Source: Mageeibacillus sp.
Lineage (GTDB): Bacteria > Bacillota > Clostridia > Saccharofermentanales > Saccharofermentanaceae
Direction: 5' to 3'
Length of the DNA stretch: 64,000 bases
Assembly (NCBI GenBank): GCA_022484595.1
Contig: JAKVLB010000002.1
Span: 1-64,000 of the forward strand
Every line of letters starts with the position of its first letter. Within the stretch, counting starts at the first letter, position 1. Under the pieces are notes generated by a model. The model made no database searches. It saw only the letters and a list, made by a program, of their open reading frames with translations, and was not told the DNA's origin. A program made the position numbers and the translations under genes. Positions 2,356-22,672 of the stretch are shown here, in pieces.

Positions 2356-5300
2356 GACGCTGTGATCGAATTGACTTTATCAGAGCCCTGAAGCCCTACA
2401 GGCGCTGTCTTGCTGAATCCCGCGTCTGTATGCTCTGTGTTGTCAAATACCCAGCTTGTGCTGTTCGCCGTAATCGTCAGCGCCGCCTTCGTGACTTTAA
2501 GCGTGCCCTTACTGTAACTGATAGCATAGTTGCCTGATACATCAGTACTTCCGTTCATTATTGCGGCTCCGGAAGCAGTATTATCGGAGGAGCCTGCATA
2601 GGTTTGGCTTCCTGTTACTGATACGTTGGCTATAGCTTCAGTAACGGTCTTATTACTTCCGTCCAATCCTTTATAAGTAACGTTAAGAATTGTAGACTGA
2701 TTTCCGGCAACACCACTGACCGATGTTCCCATTGCCGTACCTGTTACTGTAAAGCCCGCATTTGTAAGCGGTTGTGCATTATAAACTCTTGTCTGGCTTG
2801 AAGCTTCGACGTTTATCGGTCGGGCTGTAACCGTAACTGACATAAAGTTTGTTCTGTACGTTGTACCGCCGACGCTGATAACACAGTGATAGCTGCCTGT
2901 ATCAGATACATTCGCCACATCAAAGCTTGAACCTGTCGCGCCGGAAATAAGCTGTCCGTTCTTATACCATGCGTATGTCGCTCCGGTAAGATTCAATGAA
3001 TTAGAGCTTACGTTGAGTCTGTAAGGATAACCGTCGTATACCTTGCTTACAGAAGTGCTTGTGCTTGACAAAGAGTCCGCAAGATTAACAGCTGACAGCA
3101 CAATATCGACCGTGATTTCCGGACTTGTTTCCAATGCCGAATCATCGCAGTTGCCTGTATTGCTTGAGTTTGCAACAACTGTGAAATAATACGTTCCCTG
3201 ACCGTTTTTGTTTATGTCGGCACTGGCATCGTATTTGGTCGCGGTCATTGTATATGTATTTATCAGCGTATCAGGGCTGCCGGCAGTCCCGTCTTTCTTG
3301 TAAAGCCTGACGGTGTAACTGACGCTGATCTTGTCTGTTCCGCTTCCGTTATTCTCGGTAAGACTTCCGTTATTCGGTTCTGTTGTGGAAGCAACCGCAT
3401 TCCACGACAGATCTCCGATTGTAGTATACCCTGATGTCGTCCAAGCCAGTCCTGTCGGGGTACTGAGCTGTGTCTTGGCAATCGTAAATTCAACCGGCGC
3501 TGATTTCTGTCTGTCATACCATGATGTCGCAGCAACGTCAGCGTATACATAGTATGTTCCGGCATTCGTTGGAACAGTTGTCGTATCATCAGCAGCAGTC
3601 TCGTTCGAATTATCTGTAGAGTACATATATGTTGTATTTGCTTCGAGCAGGCGGACTCCCGAGCTGTTGGTTGTCTGAAGCTCAACCGGCGGAGTGAAGT
3701 TTGCCGGATAAGACGGAGCCTTGCGCTCGTCGCCCCATGTCCAGCCGCTGATTGTTATAACAGGCAAGAATTTACCTCTGTTTACAGTCAGCGTTACTTT
3801 CTTTGAATTATCGTCGACAGTCTTTGAAGCACTGTTATCTGTTCTGGTTGCAGTAACCACACAATAGTAAATGTATGTTCCGACCAGATTTCCTGTCTCG
3901 AAAACAAGCTGATTTCCATTTGCTGTAACCTTGCCCTGTTTGTCTCCGATATTGGAGGTCGTTCCATCTGTTATCGTGATGTCGCTGGCACCCTTGTAGT
4001 AATGCCATACATAACTGTATGTGTAACCGCCTGTTGTTACATTATCGCCTGATACTACAGAAGGCGTGACAGTTATTGTTCTGGTGTCAGGATAGTTGTA
4101 ATCCATAGCAACCGGATTATCAACGCTGTACGCGAGGCTGAGCGTCGGGCTGGTCGGCGTTAACGTCAGAACAAGATTGATGTCCGCATAGGAATTGAGT
4201 TTTGACGATACGGCTACATTTCCGCTGAATGAGCCTGCCGGTGATGTCGTGCTGCTCGGGCTGACAACAGCAGATACTGTGCTGTCCGTTGTGGTCTTAG
4301 AAGATGTCATCCATGACTTGACGCTGTAACCGGTCGCATTCGCAAGAGTTGCATCTACTGCAATTCCGCTCTCTCCCGCTATCATCACATATGTCGATGC
4401 GCTGTTGACTGTCATCGCTGTGATACCGTTTGTGCTGTAAGTGTCAGATGCCTTGCTGAGGGTGATTTTCGCTGCATAGACCGAGCCTGACTTGCCTTGA
4501 GCTGAATTCTTGCAGTTGGTCTGGTTGGAAGAATTCGCAACGACTCCGACAGTGTAGGCGCCAGCTCCATGCGCGCGTATAGCAGAAGCGAAATCATAGC
4601 TTGTGCCTGTAACTGTTTGAGTATCAACTACCGCATTATTCTGATCATAAAGAGTCGCCGTATAACCCGTAACAGTGGCATCACCCTTGCCTGCAATCGC
4701 TGCCCAGCTGATACTGCCCGGAGCTGTACTGCTCCAGACAGGAGCCGGAGTTGCAAGCTGAGCCTGCGTGACGGTTACGTTGCCCGGTACATAACTGAAT
4801 GAGTAATTCTCATCAACTCCGCCCGCCGCTGTAATAACGCCGGTATATGTACCTACAGAAGTAAACGGGGATGTTCCGCTGTATTCGTTGCAAGTTGCTT
4901 TTGGAACAGTAGTAAGAACCGCTGTTGTCTGTGTTCCTACAAATCCCGAATAACTTACAGTATATGAAGGCGCGGCAGAACCGTAAACCACTGACTTGTT
5001 GACACATGTAACAGTAAGAACTGCCTTGTTTATGTTTGCGTTTGCCGAACCAAGAGCATTAAGTGTATATCTCTTTGCAAGCTCGGTATCGAGTGTTCCG
5101 GTCAAAGTAACGGCAATATTCTCGCCTGCATCACCGGAAGCATAAACGCCGGTAACTGTTATTTTGTAGCTCAGATTATTAACATCATCCGTGCCGTTCA
5201 GGTTAAGTCCTGTAACCGGAATTGTAAGAACTCCGTTGCTATAGGTTGCAGTTCCAAAATCAAGCTGTGCGCAGGAAGGATTTGCAGCCGCAAGAACAGC

Positions 5301-16808: not shown

Positions 16809-17351
16809 TCATCTTTTCCTGATTTGAGCAATATACGGCAGATTACGCCCGACCTCATCAATATCGAGACCATATCCTGCAAGCCACAGATCGTTGATCT
16901 CAAACCCGTAGTATTTGACGGGAACAGTCATAAGAAGCCTGTCCGGATTGAGAAGCATCGTGCAGAGGGTAATATCCTTCGGCTTCTTCATCTCAAGATT
17001 CTGAATAATATAGGCGGTGGTAAGCCCGGTCCTTATTACATCCTCCACAACGAGCACGCGTTTGCCGGTAATATCAATATCGATATCCTTGATAATTCTT
17101 ACCACGCCTGTGCGGGAAGTCGTGTCCGGAATATTTGAGAAGCCTATCATGTCAAGCTTAAGCGGCAGATCAATAGATCTTGTAAGATCCGCAAGGAAAT
17201 ACATCGAGCCTCTGATAACTCCGATAACAACGAGTTCGTCACCCTCGTAATCCTTTTGAATCTGATTCCCGAGTTCTTTTACTCTCGCCCGTATAGTCTC
17301 TTCATCGTAAATTACCTTCAATGTTCCCAAAGCTCTCGGAAGATTGTCCAT
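16809..17351 (-). CDS. hpt: Hypoxanthine phosphoribosyltransferase-family protein with altered active-site loop
   Basis: The 180 residues match the length and layout of bacterial HPRT, which makes IMP or GMP from hypoxanthine or guanine and PRPP in purine salvage. Visible parts are VIGVIRGSMYFLADL (pyrophosphate loop region), the PRPP-binding segment VVEDVIRTGLT (residues 101-111) and the C-terminal base-binding region ending GYGLDIDEVGRNLPYI. In the family the loop reads EDIIDTG, and its second Asp is the proposed catalytic base; here it is Arg107 (codon AGG). Function may therefore be changed. It is the second gene of a pair, 19 bp after the kinase-like gene, with an AAGGAGC ribosome site. 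The family assignment is firm; enzymatic activity is uncertain. Confidence 0.85.
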   Translation of the reverse strand: MDNLPRALGTLKVIYDEETIRARVKELGNQIQKDYEGDELVVIGVIRGSMYFLADLTRSIDLPLKLDMIGFSNIPDTTSRTGVVRIIKDIDIDITGKRVLVVEDVIRTGLTTAYIIQNLEMKKPKDITLCTMLLNPDRLLMTVPVKYYGFEINDLWLAGYGLDIDEVGRNLPYIAQIRKR

Positions 17352-17370
17352 ACCTGCTCCTTATATAATA

Positions 17371-18315
17371 CTAACCGCCGAAAAGCCTCAGCCGCTCGAC
17401 AAGTTCCTGGAAATCCCTCTTGTAAACAATCCTGATATTCGTTCCCGGATACAGTTCCCTCACCCGCTTCATCTTCTTGTTCTTCTTAGTAACGTACTTC
17501 TGTTCCATAGTCGTAAGCTCCAGATATAACTGAAAATGCGGGAGGTAGAAATCCGGAGAAATCGCCATTGTGACATTGCCTTCGTCATCCCACTCAACAG
17601 GAAACGTCGTCGGTTCGTAAAGCCATTCTATATTGTAAAGATTAAGAATCTGCGCAAATTCCTCTTCGGTATCGTTCTTGAACGACACAGTCTTTGTCTG
17701 ATGATCGACTGTTCCCGCAAAATCGTTTCCGGCCGCAAGCCTTGCCCTGATATCGTGTTTGCGAGCAAGCTCGGCAATCGAATCCACGCACTCGTCGACA
17801 CTGAGCCGATCGGTATTGATAATCATATCGTAGATGGAAGAATCAGCAATGTCCTTGCCGAACAGAGTCTGAACAAAACGCTTATGCTTACGGTCTCCCA
17901 TCATAAGTGCTTCCCGCGCCTGAACGTCGCTAATATGATATCGCCTTGAAACTGACTTCTCCCTGACCTTGTCGCTTGCGGTGACTCTTATATGAACAGC
18001 ACCGGGAAAATTATCCAGAATAATACAGCCGCCCATGCCAAGGACGATAAGATTACTGTCAGCAGAATCTGAAGCCAGCTGCCTGATACGTTCCACAAGA
18101 ACATCGGCGTATGTTCTGTCACTTTTTCCTATGGGGTTTGTGAAAAACTTGGCGCTCTCATTAAGCCTCGCTACCGTACCATCCTTTAAATTTCCATAGA
18201 AATTATCCAGAGCATACTGGCGCGATATGACCTGCGTCTCAAGCCTTATTGCAAGACCGTTCGCAATCTCATCCCCAAGACTTCCATTCTGCCGTGAAAT
18301 GGTAATTATCGCCAT
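17371..18315 (-). CDS. Cytidylate kinase-like protein with C-terminal nuclease-like domain
   Basis: Residues 1 to about 200 resemble the cytidylate-kinase-like family (P-loop region ITISRQNGSLGDEIA near the N-terminus, later RRYHISDVQARE and DMIINTDRLSVDECVDSI). The last ~100 residues are a separate domain with PDFYLP, then YLELTTM, then a Lys-rich helix, which is the order of acidic and basic residues seen in PD-(D/E)XK-type nuclease folds; the match is by eye. The ATG at 18315 is preferred over the TTG three bases earlier because GGAGGG lies 7 bp upstream of it. It is first in an operon with hpt. Substrate and role are unknown; a nucleotide-linked function is suggested by the neighbour. Confidence 0.75.
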   Translation of the reverse strand: MAIITISRQNGSLGDEIANGLAIRLETQVISRQYALDNFYGNLKDGTVARLNESAKFFTNPIGKSDRTYADVLVERIRQLASDSADSNLIVLGMGGCIILDNFPGAVHIRVTASDKVREKSVSRRYHISDVQAREALMMGDRKHKRFVQTLFGKDIADSSIYDMIINTDRLSVDECVDSIAELARKHDIRARLAAGNDFAGTVDHQTKTVSFKNDTEEEFAQILNLYNIEWLYEPTTFPVEWDDEGNVTMAISPDFYLPHFQLYLELTTMEQKYVTKKNKKMKRVRELYPGTNIRIVYKRDFQELVERLRLFGG

Positions 18316-18346
18316 CAATAAGCCCTCCGCGATATCAGCTTATTTA

Positions 18347-18579: not shown

Positions 18580-19674
18580 TTACGCTTTAATATCACAATT
18601 ATATGGAACTGTAACGGTCAGAACAAAGCCAGCAGCAAAACCAATTCCGCAGCCGATTACCAGCGGGATAAAACCATGCCCCAGATATATAGGAAGTGTC
18701 ACCAGACTCGGAAAAGAGAAAGCTATCGCATGACTTCCGAAATAACCCGCAATCGCTCCGCCTATCGCCCCTCCGATGCTTCCGGCTGCAAGCGGCCATT
18801 TACGGGGAAGATTAACTGCGAAAATTGATGGTTGCGTTATTCCTCCGACCATTGCGCTTACTACGGCTGAGATACATGTTGCTTTGAACTTCTTGTCACG
18901 GCTTTTGAAAAACACCGCGAGTGAAGCTCCGGCCTGACCGAACGGCGCGGCCGCCATTACCGCAAGAATTGTATCGCTTCCGGTCAGTGCTATATTGTTC
19001 ATAGACACAAGAAGCAGCGGCCACTGAAGACTGAAGATAACCATCGGCTGAACAAGACCGCCGAGCAGACCGCCGGCCGCAGCCGGCGACAGACTGTATA
19101 AGAACTCATAACAGGAAGAAATACGATTGCCGATCAGCGTTCCTGCCGGTCCAAAAATTCCAAGTTCAAGCAGACCGCCGACAAGAATACAGATTATCGG
19201 TTTGAAGAACCCTCTGACAATCTCCGGAATAATTCTGTCAGATGCTTTCTCGACATAACCGATTATCCAGACAGTCAGAATAACAGGTATGCAGCTTGAC
19301 TGATAGGTTGCACCTATCAGCGGAATGCCGAAGAACCGGATTGTCTGCCCGCTCTCAAGAATGGTATTAATCGCAGGATACAGCGAAAGGCAGGCGAGCG
19401 CGGTCGCGATAAATTTATCAGTCTTGAATGTCGCCGCGGAAGTAAGTCCCACAAAGACCGGGAAAAAGAAGAAAACAGTGTCGGCCATAGCATTGAGAAC
19501 AAGATATGTCCCTCCGTTCTCTGACAGAACCGATGTCATGACAAGCACTGCAAGAAGGCCTTTAAGCAGACCGGCACCGCTTAACACATCACATATCGGC
19601 ATAAAGATTCCCGACAATATATCTATGAACGATGTGCCTGATTTTATTCTTTTTTTGTTTGAAGTCTCTGCCAT
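18580..19674 (-). CDS. Orphan PTS IIC-like membrane protein (glucose/beta-glucoside type) with altered sugar-site residues
   Basis: 364 residues, almost wholly hydrophobic, with the layout of the membrane domain of PTS glucose-superfamily permeases (about ten membrane segments; GIFMPICDVLSGAGLLKGLL at the start). Start chosen at 19674 because AAGGAGAG lies 8 bp upstream; the frame continues 14 codons further up without a ribosome site. No IIA or IIB domain is fused or nearby. The family signature GITEP reads GITQP here (residue ~281), and the His of the FxLHW-type motif is Gln in IFSLQWPLLL (~215). Both positions normally contact sugar. It may transport or sense something by another mechanism, or depend on IIB and IIA encoded elsewhere. 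The fold call is firm; the role is open. Confidence 0.8.
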   Translation of the reverse strand: MAETSNKKRIKSGTSFIDILSGIFMPICDVLSGAGLLKGLLAVLVMTSVLSENGGTYLVLNAMADTVFFFFPVFVGLTSAATFKTDKFIATALACLSLYPAINTILESGQTIRFFGIPLIGATYQSSCIPVILTVWIIGYVEKASDRIIPEIVRGFFKPIICILVGGLLELGIFGPAGTLIGNRISSCYEFLYSLSPAAAGGLLGGLVQPMVIFSLQWPLLLVSMNNIALTGSDTILAVMAAAPFGQAGASLAVFFKSRDKKFKATCISAVVSAMVGGITQPSIFAVNLPRKWPLAAGSIGGAIGGAIAGYFGSHAIAFSFPSLVTLPIYLGHGFIPLVIGCGIGFAAGFVLTVTVPYNCDIKA

Positions 19675-19797
19675 AAACGAGCTCTCCTTAAGTTGATACC
19701 GAGCGAAGTATATCACAAGGGAAACCTTAAATTTCAGTATTCAATCAAATGTTACAATTGCAACTGAATTGCGCTGAAGGCAGCAGAAAATCTGCAT

Positions 19798-19830
19798 AAA
19801 AAAATCCCGTTGAGGTTAGTCAACGGGATT
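19798..19830 (-). terminator. Intrinsic terminator of the structured RNA
   Basis: Read on the minus strand, aatcccgttga and tcaacgggatt form a perfect 11-bp stem with a 6-nt loop followed by seven T residues. The only transcript entering from this side is the ~600-nt non-coding region, so it defines that RNA's 3' end. Confidence 0.9.
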
Positions 19831-20415
19831 CTTAAATTTGCTCCAACGAACCAAAAATTCACTTGTTCCGTTCCATCGTCCAGACCCTTTGCTGCCAACC
19901 CGAGCTCTAAGTGACATCGTTACAACTAACTGACTGCTGCAACTATCGCCACACCGTGCAACTCATGTTTCCATTCGCCGAACGTTACTGCTGACCGACT
20001 ATCCGCTCCGTCCTACTCTCACGGGTATGACTTGCCGCCGTCGCATTTGTATCGACTACTCGTTATGCACGAACCGGTGTATTAATCAGCTGCACCTTCG
20101 GTTCCTCTCTGTCGGCGGTGACATCTCACTCGCACGCGATCCGATGACCGAATCAACTAATTGTTACAACCCTGCGACTTGTATACGAATCTTCTGTACC
20201 TTCAATCGCCTGCTCGTCTTCCCTTGGTATCCTGACCTTCAACTTCGTAATCTGCCTACGGTTATTGCCATCGGCTTCGTCTCTTCGGCTTCGCCACAAG
20301 CTTTGCCGGCTCTGGTTCTTCCCTGCGTTGTATTGTCTCACCTTGGGCGGTCTGCCTTGGAATCCGGTTTATGTTGCTTCCGTATTCCTTGGAGCTACCT
20401 TAATGATACTTGCAC
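19803..20415 (-). ncRNA. Putative large structured non-coding RNA (~600 nt)
   Basis: No frame on either strand here has a plausible protein; the minus strand has at most a 62-codon frame without a ribosome site. On the minus strand I see a possible -10 (TATAAA at 20423-20428), a closing helix in which GCTCCAA (20389-20395) pairs perfectly with TTGGAGC (19840-19846) across 556 nt, and directly inside it a hairpin GGAAT-a-CGG / CCG-g-ATTCC (20359-20388). Further complementary blocks follow (CCGCCG with CGGCGG; CACC with GGTG; GGC-GAA-GCC), and a perfect terminator ends it. The purine-rich, GNA-rich sequence is typical of folded RNA. Length, closing helix and a tRNA gene about 1.3 kb away recall the ROOL and GOLLD large-RNA classes, but I cannot confirm membership from memory. 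It lies ~120 nt downstream of the export-protein gene and could instead be that transcript's 3' part. Confidence 0.65.
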
Positions 20416-20534
20416 ACCTTTTTTTATACAATGCAACGAAAAGACCAAATGAAAATCATTTCGTTGTGCAATTTGTCGGATTTGCACAAAGAAACTACGG
20501 TTATATACTTAAAGAGTTGGGGTTATTTCACAAA

Positions 20535-21026
20535 TCAAAACAGTCCTGCAATGGATGTTATTCCGAAGGCAACAAGAAGGCTTCCTATAGTCATAATAAC
20601 TCCTGCAATCAGTACTCCGAGAAGAACAGCAATTACGCTCTTTTTGAATCCGAAATCAAGAAGTGACGCTGCAAGGGTTCCGGTCCATGCGCCTGTTCCC
20701 GGCAAAGGTATTCCGACGAATATCATAAGTGCCACAAATACTCCGCGGCCTGCCTTCTCTGTAAGCTTTTTGCCGCCTTTCTCGCCTTTCTCAAGACACC
20801 ATGTGAAGAACTTCCCGATGTATTTCTTATTGGCACCCCATACAAGAATCTTCCTTGCAAACAGGTATATGAACGGCACCGGAATCATATTTCCGACGAC
20901 TGCAACTGCCAGTGTGATATACTGGTTGAGTTCCATTGATACGCCATAAGGAACGGCACCTCGCAATTCTATAATCGGAACCATCGAGATAAAAAACACT
21001 ATAAGATACTTTGTAAATACAGACAT
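20535..21026 (-). CDS. Small multidrug export-family membrane protein (COG2426 type)
   Basis: 163 residues with the family's conserved opening VPIIELRGAVPYG (residues ~17-29), about four membrane segments and a second glycine-proline-rich hairpin (FVGIPLPGTGAWTG). The family is named for putative drug export, with little biochemical proof. A GGGGAGAG ribosome site lies 7 bp before the ATG at 21026. It is transcribed away from the MscS gene and toward the structured RNA. The family call is confident, the substrate unknown. Confidence 0.85.
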   Translation of the reverse strand: MSVFTKYLIVFFISMVPIIELRGAVPYGVSMELNQYITLAVAVVGNMIPVPFIYLFARKILVWGANKKYIGKFFTWCLEKGEKGGKKLTEKAGRGVFVALMIFVGIPLPGTGAWTGTLAASLLDFGFKKSVIAVLLGVLIAGVIMTIGSLLVAFGITSIAGLF

Positions 21027-21125: not shown

Positions 21126-22301
21126 ATGTTCACAACAATGGAAGAACTTCTTATTACCGCTCTCGGAGATAATTCATTATCTCATTTATTGTTCTGCGTT
21201 ATCATTATTTCCATATCCGCATTATCCGCGTTCATAATAAGGGGCGTGGCCAGCCTGGTATCAGATATTCTTTCGAAGAAATCGCATTTGGAATCAGTAC
21301 GTCTGATGGGCAGATTTGCACGAAGGCGCAATCTGCCGCAGAAAGTCGCAATATTCTCTTTCTTTTACTTTATTTCACAGCTCGCCGGCTATCTGTATTC
21401 ATTTGCCAGGTTTGCCGGAGCTGTCAGTCTGTATGCAATGCTCCTTATGACAACGATAATCTGCGCCTGCGCAATCGATGTATTCGGCGACTGCTACTCG
21501 CTCAAGCCGATAGCGAAAAAGCGTTCAATCAAAGGCATTCTCCAGGTAATCAAGATTTTTCTGTTCGTTGTTTTCGCGACAATTGCGGTATCAGTACTGA
21601 TTGGACAGAATCCGCTTGTTCTCATATCGGGCATGTCCGCATTCGCGGCAATCCTCGCAATTGTTTTCAAAGATCCGCTGCTCGGACTTGTGTCAGGAAT
21701 CCAGATTACCGCTGACGATCTGCTGCATATAGGCGACTGGGTGAGCATACCTTCAATGCATGTGGAAGGCTCCATAACCGATATTTCGCTTATTTCCGTT
21801 CGCATAACATGTTTCGACAACACTGTAAGCGTGGTACCGGCATATACTTTTCTGTCAGCGCCGTTTACCAACTTCAGGCAGGCCATTGCAGGCGACAAAA
21901 GACAGTTCACCGCAGTAATAAACATAGATGCTACAACATTAAGACAGCTCAGCAGTGAAGAAGCGTCAGCACTGATTGAAAGCCACAAGGAATTATCTGA
22001 TTTGTCCGGAACAATCAGCAGCGGAAGCACGACAAATCTCTGTCTGTACCGCCATTTCCTCGCAGGACTGTTCAGGGAAAGCGGCCACACCAGAGAAGAT
22101 TATCCTGTCATAGTATCGACAGGGAATTCCGAAGGACGCGGCATTCCTGTCAGCATGGTATTCACAACCGATATGGGAAATTACAGCGAATACATAGAAT
22201 TTGCTTCTCAGACAACGGAGCTGGCACTCGTCGCCATGGAAGAATTCGGTCTCAGCGCATTCCAGGAAAAGACTTCGGATAAGACTTCGGCAAAGATTTA
22301 A
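21126..22301 (+). CDS. MscS-family mechanosensitive channel (YbdG-like)
   Basis: 391 residues: N-terminal membrane helices (about residues 15-40, 75-120 and 140-180), a pore-lining segment LVLISGMSAFAAILAIVFKDPLLGLVSGIQ (given here as consecutive parts SGMSAFAAILAIVFKDP and LLGLVSGIQ, ~165-195), then the beta domain IGDWVSIPSMHVEGSITDISL and a cytoplasmic C-terminal domain. The wording TADDLLHIGDW and the NTVSVVPAYTF stretch resemble YbdG-type miniconductance channels more than small MscS. It would open under membrane tension to release solutes at hypo-osmotic shock. It is a single gene, convergent with the operon below and sharing 4 bp with its last gene. Confidence 0.9.
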   Translation: MFTTMEELLITALGDNSLSHLLFCVIIISISALSAFIIRGVASLVSDILSKKSHLESVRLMGRFARRRNLPQKVAIFSFFYFISQLAGYLYSFARFAGAVSLYAMLLMTTIICACAIDVFGDCYSLKPIAKKRSIKGILQVIKIFLFVVFATIAVSVLIGQNPLVLISGMSAFAAILAIVFKDPLLGLVSGIQITADDLLHIGDWVSIPSMHVEGSITDISLISVRITCFDNTVSVVPAYTFLSAPFTNFRQAIAGDKRQFTAVINIDATTLRQLSSEEASALIESHKELSDLSGTISSGSTTNLCLYRHFLAGLFRESGHTREDYPVIVSTGNSEGRGIPVSMVFTTDMGNYSEYIEFASQTTELALVAMEEFGLSAFQEKTSDKTSAKI

Positions 22302-22672
22302 ACGGCAACATCTTCGCCGTCAAGAAAGCGAACTATCTCATCGCGCATATGGTACATCTTCTGCACAGAATTCTCGAGAAAATAATAGTGGAAGACATAT
22401 GCCACCGTAAGACAGAAGAAAAGCAGCACAAGCACGGCACTCATAAGAAGGCAGTCCGCAGGAAGAATAAACAGACAGAATATCTCAAAGAGCAGAAACA
22501 GGGCGAAGAAAAACGTCACTACCAGATGTATGAAGCGTTCATGCTGGAAAAAAGCTATCTTCGTCTCAAACTCACCGAGAACTCTGCGCGTGCGTTCTTC
22601 CGGCGCGCTCTTCATCTCCGAATCGATGTATCCGCGAACCTTGTTCATCGTCGCCTGCATATATTCTTTCAT
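22298..22672 (-). CDS. Small two-helix membrane protein of unknown function
   Basis: 124 residues: a charged N-terminal helix (MKEYMQATMNKVRGYIDSEM), two adjacent membrane segments (~46-70 and 74-98) and a charged tail ending FLDGEDVAV. No family recognised. Its ATG overlaps the stop of the radical SAM gene by 4 bp, so it is translated from the same mRNA as dinB. Its tail end overlaps the convergent channel gene by 4 bp. Confidence 0.75.
   Translation of the reverse strand: MKEYMQATMNKVRGYIDSEMKSAPEERTRRVLGEFETKIAFFQHERFIHLVVTFFFALFLLFEIFCLFILPADCLLMSAVLVLLFFCLTVAYVFHYYFLENSVQKMYHMRDEIVRFLDGEDVAV

Follow-up and report, generated by a model that had tools for sequence, protein, structure and literature searches.

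What is encoded by some 600 nucleotides (nt) of a bacterial chromosome in which no credible protein is apparent on either strand? The question is raised by a locus in a 64,000-nt stretch of Mageeibacillus sp. (positions 1 to 64,000 of contig JAKVLB010000002.1, GenBank assembly GCA_022484595.1; hereafter the window), for which an initial annotation, made from the letters alone, proposed a discrete folded RNA on the minus strand, either a divergent member of the ROOL or GOLLD RNAs or a new class. We know of few bacterial RNA classes of such size and complexity, namely OLE, ROOL, GOLLD, raiA and the classic RNAs. Comparison with relatives strongly supports a real, uncatalogued RNA class, given that homologues carry compensatory changes, the promoter is conserved and there is no coding signal; both the folded RNA and the suggestion of a new class are thereby upheld. 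We consider it probable that the locus is the gene of an uncatalogued class of large stand-alone structural RNA in the order containing Saccharofermentans, and that this RNA acts, as we infer, in trans as a housekeeping scaffold. Most of the sampled genomes related to Saccharofermentans, a gut bacterium, have kept this RNA, which may be an overlooked working part of these cells.

All coordinates are window positions, and the RNA is read on the minus strand from 20395 to 19840. Its boundaries are the 5′ motif GCTCCAAGGAATAC (from 20395) and the 3′ motif GGTTCGTTGGAGC (to 19840), and the end-to-end pairing of GCTCCAA with TTGGAGC seen in the initial annotation spans exactly the 556 nt between them (Table 1). 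The locus folds more stably than its dinucleotide shuffles (z −2.9, with 0 of 20 shuffles as stable); the 556-nt RNA alone gives z −2.98, and the values for the window RNA and 13 homologues range from −1.9 to −5.8. None of the four open reading frames (ORFs) overlapping the RNA has a Pfam match, and the longest sense ORF has a mean length of 52 amino acids in 113 family sequences, compared with 53 in shuffles; a protein-coding reading was rejected on these grounds, in agreement with the claim that no credible protein is present. The source genome (1.92 Mb, 12 contigs, 99% complete) holds a single copy of the RNA; 11 further places matched by blastn are short chance matches.

The core, as obtained by comparison, consists of a closing helix, P1, that encloses P2, which in turn encloses the hairpin P3 and the helix P5; inside P5 lie the hairpin P4 and a domain that varies in size. 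The ends of P1 are complementary (G-U allowed, by eye) in all 110 sequences having both ends. Because the ends were located by motif, only co-variation at degenerate positions of this helix counts as evidence: position 7 is A-U in 40 sequences, G-C in 67 and G-U in 3, and A never stands opposite C. All alignments were made with MAFFT only. In 20 of 24 selected sequences (alignment A3, from which the divergent L064, L072, L074 and L076 were dropped), 92.2% of the cells of 127 pairs are paired, and both sides have changed in 46 pairs and 174 cells versus 30.0 and 65.8 in shuffles, with 0 of 500 shuffles reaching either; these figures and those below are no probabilities, since the structures were derived from the same sequences and the shuffles ignore relatedness. 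Slid versions of the structure pair at only 32–40%, a comparison in which, as in the P4 and short-homologue tests, a structure drawn from the sequences themselves has an advantage; helices 18–19 of this alignment (68–72% paired) contain misaligned rows. Compensatory changes are thus abundant, and neither of two outcomes named by the initial annotation as refuting a folded RNA, a protein match or a lack of such changes among homologues, occurred.

Short homologues were aligned separately (A4; 13 of 14, L203 being dropped as nearly identical to L202). Their 37 hand-assigned pairs are 91.5% paired, with a covariation score of 0.377 versus 0.179 (reached by 0 of 500 shuffles), 17 pairs changed on both sides versus 12.4 in shuffles (4 of 500 reach this) and 41 further pair types versus 36.4 (28 of 500); helices 2 and 4 contain misaligned rows, and P1 is uninformative here because it never varies. 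The helix equivalent to P2 covaries in these short forms (4 of 5 pairs changed on both sides, 84.6% of cells paired), and P2 strands picked by anchor were excluded from the counts, as many genus rows were mis-assigned. P5 is 100% paired and mostly invariant in the 20-sequence alignment and 80.8% paired in the short homologues. For hairpin P4, 30 chosen sequences (A2) show both-side changes in 10/10 pairs and 19 further pair types versus 16.1 in shuffles (reached by 19 of 500). In all three tests (A2, A3 and A4) covariation exceeds that of the shuffled and the slid controls. RNAalifold on 67 sequences gave 148 pairs, 55 of them covarying and 20 poorly kept (<80% paired) by simple count, and by a column-pair score on the same sequences 9 of the 10 best compatible pairs fall within the predicted structure.

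Aligned upstream regions point to a promoter of the RNA's own. Across 69 genus loci, a −10 element of the form TAnnAT occupies positions −13 to −8, with T(−13), A(−12) and T(−8) invariant and A(−9) kept in 97%, and a −35-like TTG is found (best-scoring rule) at a spacing of 17 in 45 and 16 in 16 of them. Scored against TTGACA/TATAAT, 74 genus loci match at 7–10 positions (mean 8.6 versus 4.2), and outside the genus 39 of 40 loci match at 10–12 of 12, where a score of at least 10 is reached by 0.3–0.4% of base-shuffled sequences; transcription outside the genus may therefore be strong. The initial annotation had noted a possible −10; comparison places the promoter at 20431–20426 / 20408–20403, its −35 just outside the span originally flagged. 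With the promoter there, the start of transcription very likely falls within the closing helix, at about 20396/20395. A simple promoter and terminator scan reported no minus-strand promoter, and the terminator stem only in the opposite orientation; the 11-bp stem and T7 run described initially are confirmed, with TTTTTTT following the stem at 19830–19803.

Farther upstream, the dyad AAATGATTTTCATTT, which we take to resemble a Fur-type box, is present in 40 of the 69 genus regions (one mismatch allowed), centred at −58/−59, and an exact copy occurs in none of 100 shuffles of the window; its conservation suggests that expression of the RNA may be regulated in the genus. A second dyad, TTGTGCA-TGCACAA (20464–20489), occurs in 38 of the 69 loci. 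The plus strand, too, has a promoter-like site immediately upstream of the RNA (20481–20509), and a similar TATA-like sequence was seen by eye at other loci, whether or not a divergent gene is present there.

The distribution of the RNA was followed in 188 genomes of the order, including 115 of the family: 85 of Saccharofermentans (the genus set; NCBI taxonomy places this genus in Clostridia, Oscillospiraceae) and 30 of the other genera. With blastn (E ≤ 0.01), matches, some of them short, were obtained in 74 of the 85 genus genomes, the source genome included. R1, a covariance model of a 119-position domain (43 of 67 sequences used in its first alignment, stricter filters in both scans), matches 78 of the 85, 77 of them once and G032 twice, the matches in G041 and G042 being weak; it has no match in the 30 genomes of other genera nor elsewhere in the order (78/188 overall). 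R2, a covariance model on hairpin P4 (threshold E ≤ 0.05), matches 114 of the 188: 72/85 in the genus, 30/30 in the other genera and 12/23 in family f4; ten of the matched genomes from the other genera and three of those from f4 had themselves supplied model sequences. Counting R1 in the genus and R2 in the other genera, 108 of the 115 family genomes have the RNA, and nearly all RNA-bearing genomes have a single match.

Of 15 further loci that were fetched, 14 have both ends and the promoter, L208 being the exception; all nine f4 loci from outside the R2 training set have them. Three of four genomes tried from other genera (G085, G089 and G097) have 5′ AGCTCCAGGGAATA, 3′ GGTTCGCTGGAGC and the promoter. 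The exact 15-mer AGYTCCARGGAATAC occurs in 93 of the 188 genomes of the order, with 5 of 23 in f4, and in 17 of 391 genomes sampled from the class; it has eight matches among 375 genomes outside the order, and the sole one with a 3′ end, L186 (G199), is taken as a homologue. The RNA is present in all four sampled families of the order and once in another order. Within the genus, both ends were found in 67 sequences including the window (up to 4 mismatches allowed in the end motifs), at lengths of 439–622 nt that seven later additions widen to 396–622 nt (74 sequences); outside the genus, 35 sequences measure 244–601 nt. Altogether 115 sequences were collected, spanning 244–622 nt. L170b, L172, L173, L174 and L208, which have no usual 3′ end, were excluded from the end and length counts, and L143, with short upstream sequence, from the promoter and length counts.

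A pattern scan of genome contigs returned 17 loci, 13 with an R1 match and four (L079, L080, L081 and L089) without. Extra motif matches in G040, G042:C34 and G058 (L197) have no 3′ end and were taken as chance, and extra 15-mer matches of G037, G053 and G071 lie outside the homologue assessment. Tandem pairs of the RNA gene are seen in two f3 genomes, L169 (G154) and L170 (G162), at distances of 500 and 695 bases respectively; in G162 a contig end cuts the second copy.

Table 1 Features of the RNA locus in window coordinates (all on the minus strand).
Feature	Position	Strand	Basis or remark
Structured RNA of 556 nt, bounded by the closing helix	19840..20395	−	Fold, homologues, covariation; R1 in 78/85 genus genomes
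P1 5′ strand GCUCCAA	20389..20395	−	Pairs with 19840–19846
P1 3′ strand UUGGAGC	19840..19846	−	Pairs with 20389–20395
P2 5′ strand AGACC	20349..20353	−	Proposed partner GGUCU 19886–19882; by eye; outside the 20-sequence consensus structure
P2 3′ strand GGUCU, after AAAG	19882..19886	−	Proposed partner AGACC 20349–20353; by eye
P5 5′ strand CGAGC	20212..20216	−	Pairs with GCUCG 19905–19901
P5 3′ strand GCUCG	19901..19905	−	Partner CGAGC 20212..20216
P4 hairpin GCGAUU...AGUCGC, basis of model R2	20174..20209	−	Changes on both sides in 10/10 pairs
Domain kept across the genus, basis of model R1	20052..20171	−	Covariance model matches
−10 element TATCAT	20403..20408	−	Aligned upstream regions
−35 element TTGTAT, spacing 17	20426..20431	−	Aligned upstream regions
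Dyad AAATGATTTTCATTT upstream of the promoter (centre near −58), which may be a regulator site	20447..20461	−	40/69 genus upstream regions
Intrinsic terminator: 11-bp stem 19830–19803 and T run	19796..19830	−	Window letters

An own promoter, a covarying core, a variable domain, usually one copy and retention in most genomes of the family together make up the anatomy of a trans-acting structural RNA. Such an RNA would be strongly expressed from its own promoter, would fold compactly in three dimensions with its two ends held to each other, and would act in trans as a housekeeping scaffold, bound by protein or assembled into an RNA multimer, much as OLE or raiA/ModT RNA does. A more specific form of this proposal, about which we are nearly evenly divided, is a strongly transcribed housekeeping RNA machine of one order, with a core of about 250 nt, locked ends and a single domain that enlarges it to more than 600 nt, working as a ribonucleoprotein or as an RNA-only multimer.

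Several observations weigh against the preferred explanation of a large stand-alone structural RNA acting in trans. Seven of the 85 genus genomes have no R1 match, and in G040, G044 and G072 the stretches around the usual neighbour gene contain no copy of the RNA, which is hence not strictly essential; it seems to matter to the cell, yet to be dispensable for some lineages. The exact 15-mer AGYTCCARGGAATAC is found in just 2 of 38 genomes of family f2 and 3 of 12 of family f3, and R2 matches none in either. L208 has the promoter without the usual 3′ end, and the column-pair score places just 13 of its top 40 pairs inside the structure, the remainder probably reflecting relatedness. Of 109 relatives, 103 have a T tract in the next 75 nt, but so do 63% of shuffles, which leaves the terminator in relatives supportive but loose. 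The expression, ends and size of the RNA are deduced from sequence, and its trans action and scaffold role from anatomy.

An unlikely alternative that still deserves weight is a regulator that acts in trans by binding RNA polymerase or mRNAs, in a 6S-like or small-RNA-like manner, with a fold that presents a binding site and does not serve as a scaffold. The stand-alone promoter would suit it, as would the regulated expression suggested by the dyad AAATGATTTTCATTT, but the genome has a 6S RNA candidate elsewhere, albeit at 36.2 bits and below the cut-off of 46.4, and the invariant positions are dispersed over the entire RNA and form no single seed region. RNase P RNA and tmRNA were rejected as identities of the locus, being located elsewhere in the genome (RF00010 at G000:C1:116618-116964, 251.7 bits; RF00023 at G000:C11:18643-19018, 128.8 bits). 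The large core with its many invariant nucleotides could also belong to a ribozyme acting on RNA in trans, which we regard as improbable: cmscan recognises no catalytic RNA family.

Greater doubt still attaches to a divergent member of a known large class (ROOL, GOLLD, OLE, raiA, HEARO or group II intron RNA), even though the size, the end-to-end pairing and the purine-rich composition (58–67% in 14 sequences) are similar and several records of this genus come from rumen samples, cow rumen being the source given for ROOL in passages of its description. At gathering cut-offs, Rfam 15 finds only a tRNA in the whole window and one tRNA, nothing else, in 20 loci. The cmscan that the initial annotation proposed gave just four weak, unrelated families over 19700–20540 at E ≤ 10; six loci gave no family at E ≤ 0.5, another search of eight loci gave two weak matches, both in flanks, and divergent and short homologues gave weak unrelated families or none at E ≤ 10. 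No ROOL, GOLLD or OLE covariance match was found by cmscan, where the presence of these models in our Rfam copy was not looked up; Rfam has profiles for all three according to a passage of PMC12286853. A raiA match was likewise not listed, where the raiA model was not confirmed to be in the library, and the same passage describes a raiA profile built by its authors themselves. By blastn there was no match among 50,697 phage or 72,556 plasmid records, and a mobile element was rejected on that ground. With no cmscan, phage or plasmid match, membership of ROOL, GOLLD or OLE is not supported, and the idea of a divergent ROOL or GOLLD member found no convincing match in the window or its homologues. 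Searches of the open-licence PMC literature returned no description of this RNA, and the main texts of the RNA discovery papers covered do not mention Saccharofermentans, supplementary tables lying outside that word search.

Exact patterns were also run against IMG/VR. A 20-mer pattern gave one match, an 18-nt chance match, and a second pattern gave none. The 5′ 15-mers occur in 34 and 45 contigs, one of which has a 3′-like motif but no promoter and was taken as chance. One contig, L298 (IMGVR_UViG_3300020072_000089), holds a true piece of the RNA at 4619–4739: the contig, whose long ORFs look phage-like by eye, switches abruptly into mid-RNA, and over its final 121 bases it matches the RNA of locus L148 without a difference. 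It looks like an assembly chimera, and cDNA of some abundant RNA is a possible source.

A cis-regulatory leader or riboswitch is scarcely credible: a same-strand gene (18580–19716) does follow in the window, and likewise at some other loci, but a terminator stands after the RNA in the window and the downstream gene differs between clades, with a convergent hpt (phosphoribosyltransferase) in 72 of the 107 loci whose downstream sequence extends for 400 nt or more (45/65 in the genus set, 27/42 in a second set). A cytidylate kinase-like gene is likewise found downstream in 70 of the same 107, and L186, from another order, has this hpt/cytidylate kinase-like neighbourhood too. That loci share their neighbourhood suggests vertical inheritance of the RNA; genes upstream vary (mscS-like, small multidrug exporter and others). 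In the window, the hpt and kinase-like pair (16809–18318) lies farther off on the RNA's own strand, beyond a PTS EIIC gene and a tRNA, so this genome is rearranged relative to most relatives. The setting among chromosomal genes fits the initial statement that there is no prophage here. A small protein at 22298–22672, in which segments of membrane type can be made out by eye and for which no Pfam family is significant, occurs in 111 of the 115 family genomes, and the four genomes without it (G007, G065, G074 and G076) also have no R1 match; the link to a possible partner is weak because G040, G044 and G072 have the protein without the RNA.

This RNA opens the role and multimer formation of large ornate RNAs to testing in a new system, through 115 sequences, natural size variation between 244 and 622 nt by which the core can be told apart, and natural absences. 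Passages of the published accounts, in which the functions of OLE, ROOL and GOLLD are called poorly understood, allow comparison with known large RNAs. OLE is described there as a large, highly structured RNA of about 600 nt in extremophiles and anaerobes of the Bacillota, much like this one, but the commonest neighbour downstream of ole is oapA whereas here it is hpt (OapA itself was not searched for), this RNA is as short as 244 nt among its relatives, and no Rfam match is seen; membrane localisation is a further mark of OLE. The raiA/ModT RNA is likewise described as a conserved trans-acting RNA of the Bacillota with variable neighbours, and as one whose abundance rivals rRNA; it differs in measuring 205 nt in the structure work excerpted and in giving no cmscan match here, where the presence of its model in the library is unverified. 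ROOL, an ornate RNA of 659 nt in its first studied example, which came from cow rumen, is marked by an RNA-only homo-oligomeric cage and is placed in prophages and phages, often near tRNA islands, whereas the present RNA has ordinary chromosomal neighbours, with one tRNA in the window and one among 20 loci, and no Rfam match. GOLLD, too, is large and joins a conserved portion to one that is less so, but many of its members exceed 800 nt and are phage-linked, and again Rfam gives no match here. We regard the class as new, its common ground with these RNAs being their general manner: large, stand-alone and structured.
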